This document shows positions 48,729 through 49,289 of a stretch of 64,000 nt of DNA, piece after piece. Made by a program: the position numbers and the translations under genes. How positions within the stretch are numbered: position 1 is the stretch's first letter; each line of letters opens with the position of its first letter. A model generated the notes under the pieces. That model made no database searches. It saw only the letters and a program-made list of their open reading frames with translations, and was not told the origin of the DNA. The stretch is from an uncultured Pelagibacteraceae bacterium (lineage in GTDB: Bacteria; Pseudomonadota; Alphaproteobacteria; Pelagibacterales; Pelagibacteraceae). The stretch is from the NCBI GenBank assembly GCA_902582345.1, contig CACHRU010000002.1, positions 1-64,000 of the forward strand. The letters run 5' to 3'.

Positions 48729-48778
48729 TTCAAACTGGACAATTCACTACTTAGATGGTACCTACCGGTAAAATAACT

Positions 48779-48783
48779 GGAGG
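48779..48783 (+). promoter_or_regulatory. Shine-Dalgarno of rpsU
   Basis: GGAGG lies 5 nt before the apparent ATT start at 48789. It is one of the clearest ribosome-binding sites in the window and argues that translation starts at ATT. Confidence 0.65.
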
Positions 48784-48788
48784 TTTTT

Positions 48789-48983
48789 ATTAAAATAGAA
48801 GTAAAAGATAACAATGTTGAACAAGCTTTGAGAGTTTTAAAAAGAAAGCTACAAAAAGAAGGTTTTTTTAAAGTTATAAAAATGAAGAGTAATTACGAGA
48901 AACCCTCTGAAAAAAAGAAGAGAATTAAAACAGAAAATCTTAAAAGAGTAAAAAAACTCCAGAAATTAAGAAACAGAATATAA
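48789..48983 (+). CDS. rpsU: Ribosomal protein S21, apparent ATT start
   Basis: The frame encodes 64 residues, the normal bS21 length. It starts (I/M)[19 protein letters not shown] and continues [21 protein letters not shown], matching alphaproteobacterial bS21 throughout. No ATG, GTG or TTG exists at the expected start. The codon is ATT, preceded by GGAGG at 5-nt spacing; the frame is stopped five codons upstream, with only a CTG between. Rare ATT starts are known for infC. A base error (ATG to ATT) is the alternative. It lies between purE and cspA, whose ATG is 21 nt beyond this stop. Confidence 0.9.
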
Positions 48984-49004
48984 TTAAATATCAATAGGAG
49001 TACT

Positions 49005-49208
49005 ATGCCATCTGGTAAGGTTAAATGGTTTAACTCAAAAAAAGGTTACGGATTTATAACTGATGATGAAACCGAAAAGGATATCTTTTTACACGTAACG
49101 GCTTTAGAAAAATCTAAGTTAAGAGTGTTAAAAGAAAATCAGAAAATTAAATTTGAGATAAAAGAGGAAAAAAATAAACTGCAGGCCATTAATCTCAAGA
49201 AGGCCTAA
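49005..49208 (+). CDS. cspA: Cold-shock domain protein (CspA family)
   Basis: The 67-residue single cold-shock domain has RNP1-like KGYGFI and RNP2-like DIFLHV, and starts GKVKWFN. It binds single-stranded RNA and DNA and melts mRNA structure. The SD TAGGAG lies 4 nt before the ATG. It is in a tight plus-strand unit with rpsU and tRNA-fMet, which begins 4 nt after this stop. Confidence 0.96.
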   Translation: MPSGKVKWFNSKKGYGFITDDETEKDIFLHVTALEKSKLRVLKENQKIKFEIKEEKNKLQAINLKKA

Positions 49209-49212
49209 TTAT

Positions 49213-49289
<77 letters not shown>

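Follow-up and report, generated by a model that had tools for sequence, protein, structure and literature searches.

The locus described here raises the question of how translation of a ribosomal protein gene is initiated when its reading frame offers no standard start codon. In the window, by which we mean the whole 64,000-nucleotide stretch of DNA that was analysed, rpsU (48789..48983, forward strand) encodes the ribosomal protein bS21 with 64 amino acids and ends with the stop codon TAA at 48981-48983. A Shine-Dalgarno (SD) sequence GGAGG (48779..48783, forward strand) is followed by a 5-nt spacer TTTTT, by the codon ATT (48789..48791, forward strand) and by the codons AAA ATA GAA GTA AAA GAT AAC AAT; the contiguous SD match amounts to 6 nt (GGAGGT). 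The 64 residues read from the ATT match the Pfam family Ribosomal_S21 (PF01165) over residues 3-53 with 57.2 bits (cut-off 27), which identifies the product as bS21 and agrees with an earlier sequence-only reading, according to which the protein is complete from its second residue on. It is the single bS21 match in the source assembly (978 kb, 85% complete). The same reading had found no standard start codon and, indeed, going upstream the frame runs into a stop codon, TAA (48774-48776), and the codons from there up to the ATT are CTG GAG GTT TTT, of which the CTG overlaps the SD sequence. In frame, a standard start is first encountered with TTG 48828, which is situated inside the conserved domain and the use of which would cost 13 residues.

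Relatives of the gene were collected within the family Pelagibacteraceae (SAR11). A bS21 protein match was obtained in 252 of the 297 family genomes drawn, many of the 45 genomes without a match being incomplete, and a named genome collection contained at least 451 stretches encoding a relative, of which the best 80 were taken (records titled Pelagibacterales, Pelagibacteraceae or Pelagibacter in 79 cases and Rhodospirillaceae in one). Together with the window, 29 loci from the drawn genomes and 30 loci chosen for divergent genera, 140 family loci were read, corresponding to 125 distinct sequences. This set was selected by best similarity and genus cover and is thus non-random; it represents all 12 family genera with a bS21 match. 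Since the median nucleotide identity between the rpsU genes is 0.78 (3000 sampled pairs), the set does not consist of near copies.

Among the 125 distinct loci the start codon was ATT in 121, ATA in two and ATC in two, and ATG, GTG or TTG in none. The SD sequence was GGAGG in 114, GGAG in eight and GGGGG in three, and its distance from the start was 5 nt in 94 loci, 4-6 nt in 121 and 9 nt in four. An ATG in related rpsU genes, which according to the sequence-only reading would have pointed to a sequence error, was looked for in these loci and was found in 0 of 125, and the proposal that the ATT 5 nt behind GGAGG serves as start is borne out by the same arrangement in relatives, where AUU, AUA or AUC (AUH) occupies this position in 125 of 125. 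On this comparative evidence the ATT start of the window rpsU is real and its lack of an AUG is not a sequence error; judged from the aligned loci, a weak start is the rule in every SAR11 rpsU read and not the peculiarity of one odd gene. Two further family genomes (G114 and G194, loci L140 and L141) contain an rpsU with an internal stop or a shifted frame, by assembly error or decay, and here too the start is ATT.

That the true start has been lost or lies elsewhere (a lost ATG, an upstream TTG or CTG, or the internal TTG 48828) is already contradicted, and we give it virtually no credence. It could appeal to standard ORF calling, which picks a 51-amino-acid ORF from the TTG, and to an in-frame TTG at -12 in 30 of the 125 relatives. 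However, an identical ATT recurs in genomes that were assembled separately, among them records whose titles say metagenome-assembled or single-cell (SAG), and the codons just after the ATT vary silently at fixed residues as expected of coding sequence (valine at codon 4, counted from 0, is GTA in 63 loci, GTT in 53 and GTC in nine). The TTG at -12 was rejected as rpsU start, as it overlaps the SD sequence and is missing in 95 of 125 loci. In 89 of the 125 loci the stretch from the upstream stop to the start is free of in-frame ATG, GTG and TTG, and the other 36 contain only implausible ones, namely this TTG in 30 (one of them, L101, also having an ATG at -21) and an ATG or GTG in six, at -27 in one and at -33 in five, where it belongs to a promoter-like TGNTA element.

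The start codon itself appears to be constrained. For each of the four non-ATT loci the five nearest neighbours all have ATT, which corresponds to about four separate changes (two to ATA, two to ATC); ATG, one base away from ATT, was restored in none, a result with a chance of about 0.2 if bases are equally likely and therefore not significant alone. The third base of the start codon has an entropy of 0.24 bits, as compared with 0.95 and 1.18 bits at the isoleucine codons 45 and 50 (numbered from 0), which places it with the most strongly conserved silent positions of rpsU. Codons 1 and 2 are almost as constrained (0.28 bits), so that part of the constraint belongs to the whole initiation region. 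Such conservation of a weak start suggests, as far as the sequences tell, that rpsU translation is deliberately throttled in SAR11.

Near-cognate rpsU starts are not confined to this family. In the sister family of the Pelagibacterales, bS21 was matched in 12 of the 14 genomes searched (three genera), and in all 12 loci read the SD sequence is followed by ATA, then by GTC or GTT and by GAA GTA, with ATG, GTG or TTG at the start position in 0 of 12. As the ATA is invariant and the next codon alternates between two valine codons, ATA is likely the start there. Control genes behave conventionally: bS20 has an ATG start in each of the 30 loci read in the family, where 50 genomes gave a match, and likewise in each of the 30 loci read among 70 in the Alphaproteobacteria, and a cold-shock domain gene (csp) located downstream of rpsU starts with ATG in all 67 N-termini found among the 140 family loci (55 distinct), three TTG readings being counted as ATG because they represent the leucine codon of MPLGKV behind an ATG. 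The gamma-type rpsU of other Pseudomonadota begins with ATG in 25 of 25 genes read out of 30 loci; L344, among the five outside those 25, is an alphaproteobacterial locus with a GTG start.

In the class as a whole, bS21 is present in 274 of 289 genomes. For the start codons, 130 loci outside the Pelagibacterales were taken from the upper part of a score-ranked list, some entries being skipped, and the sample therefore leans to typical sequences; calls gave precedence to a standard start lying no more than four codons from the conserved core and otherwise went to a near-cognate codon with an SD sequence. The 129 loci read (L208 was missed) gave GTG in 62, TTG in 24, ATG in 20, ATC in 14, ATA in five, ATT in one and CTG in two, and one was unclear (L373). 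GTG or TTG thus stands at rpsU in 86 of 129 loci and, as ATG does so in only 20, the SAR11 pattern represents the far end of a tendency, class-wide in this sample, to avoid AUG. Apparent AUH starts were found in 20 of 129 loci (18 of 130 by another calling rule) from 13 families (f114, f137, f35, f102, f60, f15, f146, f17, f131, f127, f22, f41 and f92), five of which have more than one case; in three (f15, f35, f114) the valine codon after the AUH varies. Six of the class AUH cases have a GTG three codons upstream that overlaps the SD sequence, and in L377, L379 and L382 initiation might instead occur further upstream, at a standard codon that has an SD-like match.

The gene best known for such a start, infC, encoding initiation factor IF3, shows a different distribution. 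In the class sample its start was AUA in 18 and AUC in two of the 20 loci (of 30) that were readable by eye, L483 and L491 having in addition an in-frame ATG overlapping the SD sequence. The sister family has AUA in five and AUC in one of six infC loci (by eye), and hence a near-cognate start at both infC and rpsU. Within the SAR11 family, five genera of which are covered by the infC sample, 28 of 30 infC loci, belonging to two genera, start with GTG, which stands directly after an in-frame stop codon, and the two others, from one genus, start with ATG. Two further genera with one locus each have a plausible ATT at infC, and AUU at rpsU too (by eye). The classic weak start of infC has thus apparently been lost within SAR11, in three of the five genera sampled; since rpsU has AUU in these genera, it keeps its weak start despite the loss at infC.

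Upstream of rpsU, a -35-like element TGGACA (48736..48741, forward strand) and an extended -10-like element TGGTACCTA (48756..48764, forward strand) were recognized, together a presumed rpsU promoter. All 125 family loci contain the motif TGNTA, 30-40 nt ahead of the start codon, as compared with 12% of shuffled 30-nt regions, and the family consensus aligned on this motif reads T[AG]GACA, a distance of 17 nt, and TAACTA preceded by TGN. This resembles the sigma-70 consensus, and we take it to be an extended -10 promoter; its -10-like element ends in A and not in T in 85% of family loci, which is unusual for a sigma-70 site. An upstream ORF starting at TGNTA was rejected, as the distance to the start varies between 30 and 40 nt and the frame is not kept. 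From the positions of the two elements in the window, transcription would start near 48771, about 7 nt past the -10-like element, leaving a predicted 5' leader of about 18 nt (48771..48788, forward strand); with transcript starts placed in this way, leaders in the family would measure about 15-25 nt.

The predicted leader lacks a stable structure. Folding of 48771-48830 gave -3.5 kcal/mol with a z-score of +0.72 against shuffles, thus no better than these, and near rpsU there was no Rfam match at gathering thresholds, for which reasons a structured leader RNA was rejected. The main text of a Pelagibacter RNA survey (PMC2704228) does not mention rpsU or S21. As the leader is predicted to be short and unstructured, there would be little room for a structured operator, and the SD sequence and the AUU are the likely control point.

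Downstream of rpsU, the window contains csp (49005..49208, forward strand; ATG start; PF00313 at 85.5 bits) and an initiator tRNA-Met(CAT) gene identified by ARAGORN (49213..49289, forward strand), presumably in the same transcription unit. A match to PF11735 was below its cut-off and was disregarded. In 116 of the 125 family loci rpsU is followed by a tRNA-Met(CAT) gene in the same orientation, and 115 of these 116 tRNAs have the C1:A72 mismatch that is a hallmark of initiator tRNA, so that in SAR11 the initiator tRNA is clustered on one strand with rpsU and often with csp (e.g. 48789-49289 of the window, L084, L113, L115). In 29 loci the tRNA starts only 3-7 nt past the rpsU stop codon, which suggests co-transcription and processing. 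Three of the nine loci without the tRNA (L125, L132, L135) end less than 300 nt from the rpsU start; the other six, from two genera (L126, L128, L133, L136, L137, L138), read on for 1.0-1.7 kb without a tRNA, yet have ATT. No tRNA-Met was found beside rpsU in the four sister-family loci and the 27 other class loci examined. For the adjacent gene, which is an ordinary CAT initiator, a special initiator tRNA was rejected. Nor can the tRNA by itself account for the weak start, since near-cognate starts persist in lineages without an adjacent tRNA.

Taking these observations together, we propose that the near-cognate start of SAR11 rpsU has been selected because it throttles bS21 and makes its synthesis sensitive to IF3 stringency, as in infC, an explanation to which we give an even chance. 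A near-cognate codon (AUU, or AUA in the sister family) stands closely behind a strong GGAGG on what would be a very short leader. The strong SD would bring the 30S subunit to the rpsU start, where the mismatch of AUU with the CAU anticodon of the initiator would yield a complex that IF3 can reject, and bS21 output would be a fraction of the rate from AUG. Abundant IF3 in relation to 30S subunits would lower the rate, and 30S subunits in excess of IF3 would raise it; the supply of bS21, a late-joining and exchangeable 30S protein, would thereby be tied to the amount of 30S subunits, as AUU ties IF3 to itself. Such IF3-gated initiation is favoured because bS20 and csp of the same clade start normally and because phage copies of rpsU have ATG or TTG (see below). 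Against it speaks that most rpsU genes of the class have GTG or TTG, codons that IF3 tolerates, and that a constant throttle would explain the conserved weak start just as well. Moreover, with GTG or ATG at SAR11 infC, the loop of IF3 on itself would not be kept there, and control of this kind would be dispensable. The sequence-only reading had supposed that bS21, which binds near the anti-SD and aids initiation, might through its weak start create a feedback similar to that of infC; the sequences themselves do not discriminate between IF3 gating and a fixed throttle.

The main rival is accordingly a fixed throttle without feedback, in which the AUU merely sets a low and constant yield of bS21 per transcript; we regard it as a real possibility, although below an even chance. 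If the transcript carries the initiator tRNA, as is probable, with one tRNA per transcript, a promoter strong enough for the tRNA would with AUG lead to overproduction of bS21. In line with this, 116 of 125 loci have the tRNA downstream in the orientation of rpsU, 29 of them at 3-7 nt, and all 125 have the promoter-like element ahead of the gene; the same holds for reporters in Staphylococcus aureus, in which AUU and AUA starts gave about 10% of the expression of AUG mutants in poor medium (PMC13009471). While the fixed throttle explains the tRNA linkage in SAR11 neatly, it does not account for near-cognate starts where the tRNA is not adjacent, as in the six family loci, the four sister-family loci and other alphaproteobacteria; in addition, a weaker SD could also lower the yield, yet the SD stays strong. 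The strong SD conserved in the family would fit a direct feedback by bS21, whereby initiation at the rpsU SD is more efficient on ribosomes without bS21 and the weak codon sharpens this dependence, but a hidden anti-SD is not known to occur in SAR11. Autoregulation of rpsU via its SD has been reported in Flavobacterium johnsoniae (PMC9976891); there the SD is extended to 9-13 bp, as compared with the 6 nt in the window. Control of this type also involves an anti-SD concealed by bS21, bS18 and bS6. Moreover, bS21 promotes SD pairing in Escherichia coli (PMC10931766), so a shortage of bS21 would not obviously favour a message with a strong SD, and we consider direct feedback improbable. Finally, the start might be a relic or the product of drift, an ancestral weak codon kept without function since little bS21 is needed. 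Weak rpsU starts are common across the class sample and whole phyla are reported to do without bS21 (PMC10931766), but the low entropy of the third base of the ATT in genes of such median identity, and the ATG kept at bS20 in all family loci read, make this explanation very improbable.

For IF3-gated initiation, each step of the mechanism has a precedent elsewhere. infC (AUU, AUA or AUC) autoregulates through its ATT start, and in Streptomyces IF3 represses sigR, which has a GTC start, whereas GTG and TTG are tolerated by IF3 (PMC5472188). The likeness to infC drawn by the sequence-only reading is apt, both being genes of the initiation machinery with an AUH codon behind an SD; of the marks of an infC-type start, an AUH codon, a strong SD at proper spacing and conservation in relatives are likewise found in SAR11 rpsU. 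infC, however, encodes the discriminating factor and rpsU a ribosomal protein, so that any feedback would be indirect. With sigR, a non-IF3 gene whose near-cognate start answers to IF3, rpsU would have this response in common; sigR encodes a transcription factor, and its IF3 dependence was tested (PMC5472188). The accompanying remark that ATT starts are known mainly from infC is incomplete, since AUU or AUA starts are also reported for cvfC1, ccpN and citZ in S. aureus, with pcnB of E. coli cited as a further case (PMC13009471). Like SAR11 rpsU, cvfC1 (AUU) and ccpN (AUA) combine a near-cognate start with a strong SD and conservation in relatives, and with citZ (AUA) they share a low yield relative to AUG; they differ in that trapped ribosomes (cvfC1, ccpN) and reporters are available for them and that they do not encode ribosomal proteins (PMC13009471). 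Flavobacterium rpsU is the same gene, with a strong SD and control at initiation, but its extended SD occurs in a clade that otherwise uses SDs little (PMC9976891). We saw no near-cognate rpsU start in Flavobacterium, and the main text of that study does not mention AUU.

A regulatory meaning of the weak start is thus plausible from the comparison of sequences, and would constitute a second way, after the SD loop of Flavobacterium, of tying bS21 supply to the state of the ribosome. Our literature search, in which subscription papers were thinly covered, found no published report of a non-AUG start of rpsU, and the regulation of rpsU in E. coli was called unknown by a 2024 review (PMC10931766); a regulatory weak start would make the question of rpsU regulation in Proteobacteria directly testable. 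As far as sampled, rpsU avoids AUG over the whole order of SAR11, among the most abundant bacterial groups (PMC7029224), and gene callers limited to ATG, GTG and TTG would truncate or miss it.

On a wider reading, which we put forward tentatively and consider somewhat unlikely, control by start-codon stringency would in alphaproteobacteria have come to include rpsU besides infC and have become fixed in SAR11, where rpsU alone of the two keeps a weak start in three of the five genera sampled, usually beside the initiator tRNA. The unit might then act as a gauge of initiation capacity, the IF3:30S ratio together with the initiator tRNA setting bS21, and phages would escape by an upstream standard start, the host's former start being kept as an internal isoleucine. 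A regulatory weak start would also suggest a reason why phages that carry bS21 might not copy the start of the host. In viral contigs, of which the metagenomic ones have no assigned host and a few may not be viral, an ATG or TTG is placed 0-3 codons upstream of the position of the host ATT in all 57 loci (36 distinct), and the host-ATT position holds an isoleucine codon in 50 of the 57, possibly left over from a start of the host type. Thus, rpsU of Pelagibacter phage HTVC008M begins with ATG TCA ATA and that of phage Mosig with TTG AGT ATC. A SAR11-type rpsU with a SAR11 leader was also encountered under a foreign name, in the record titled Rhodospirillaceae bacterium (L036), which is probably a misnamed bin.
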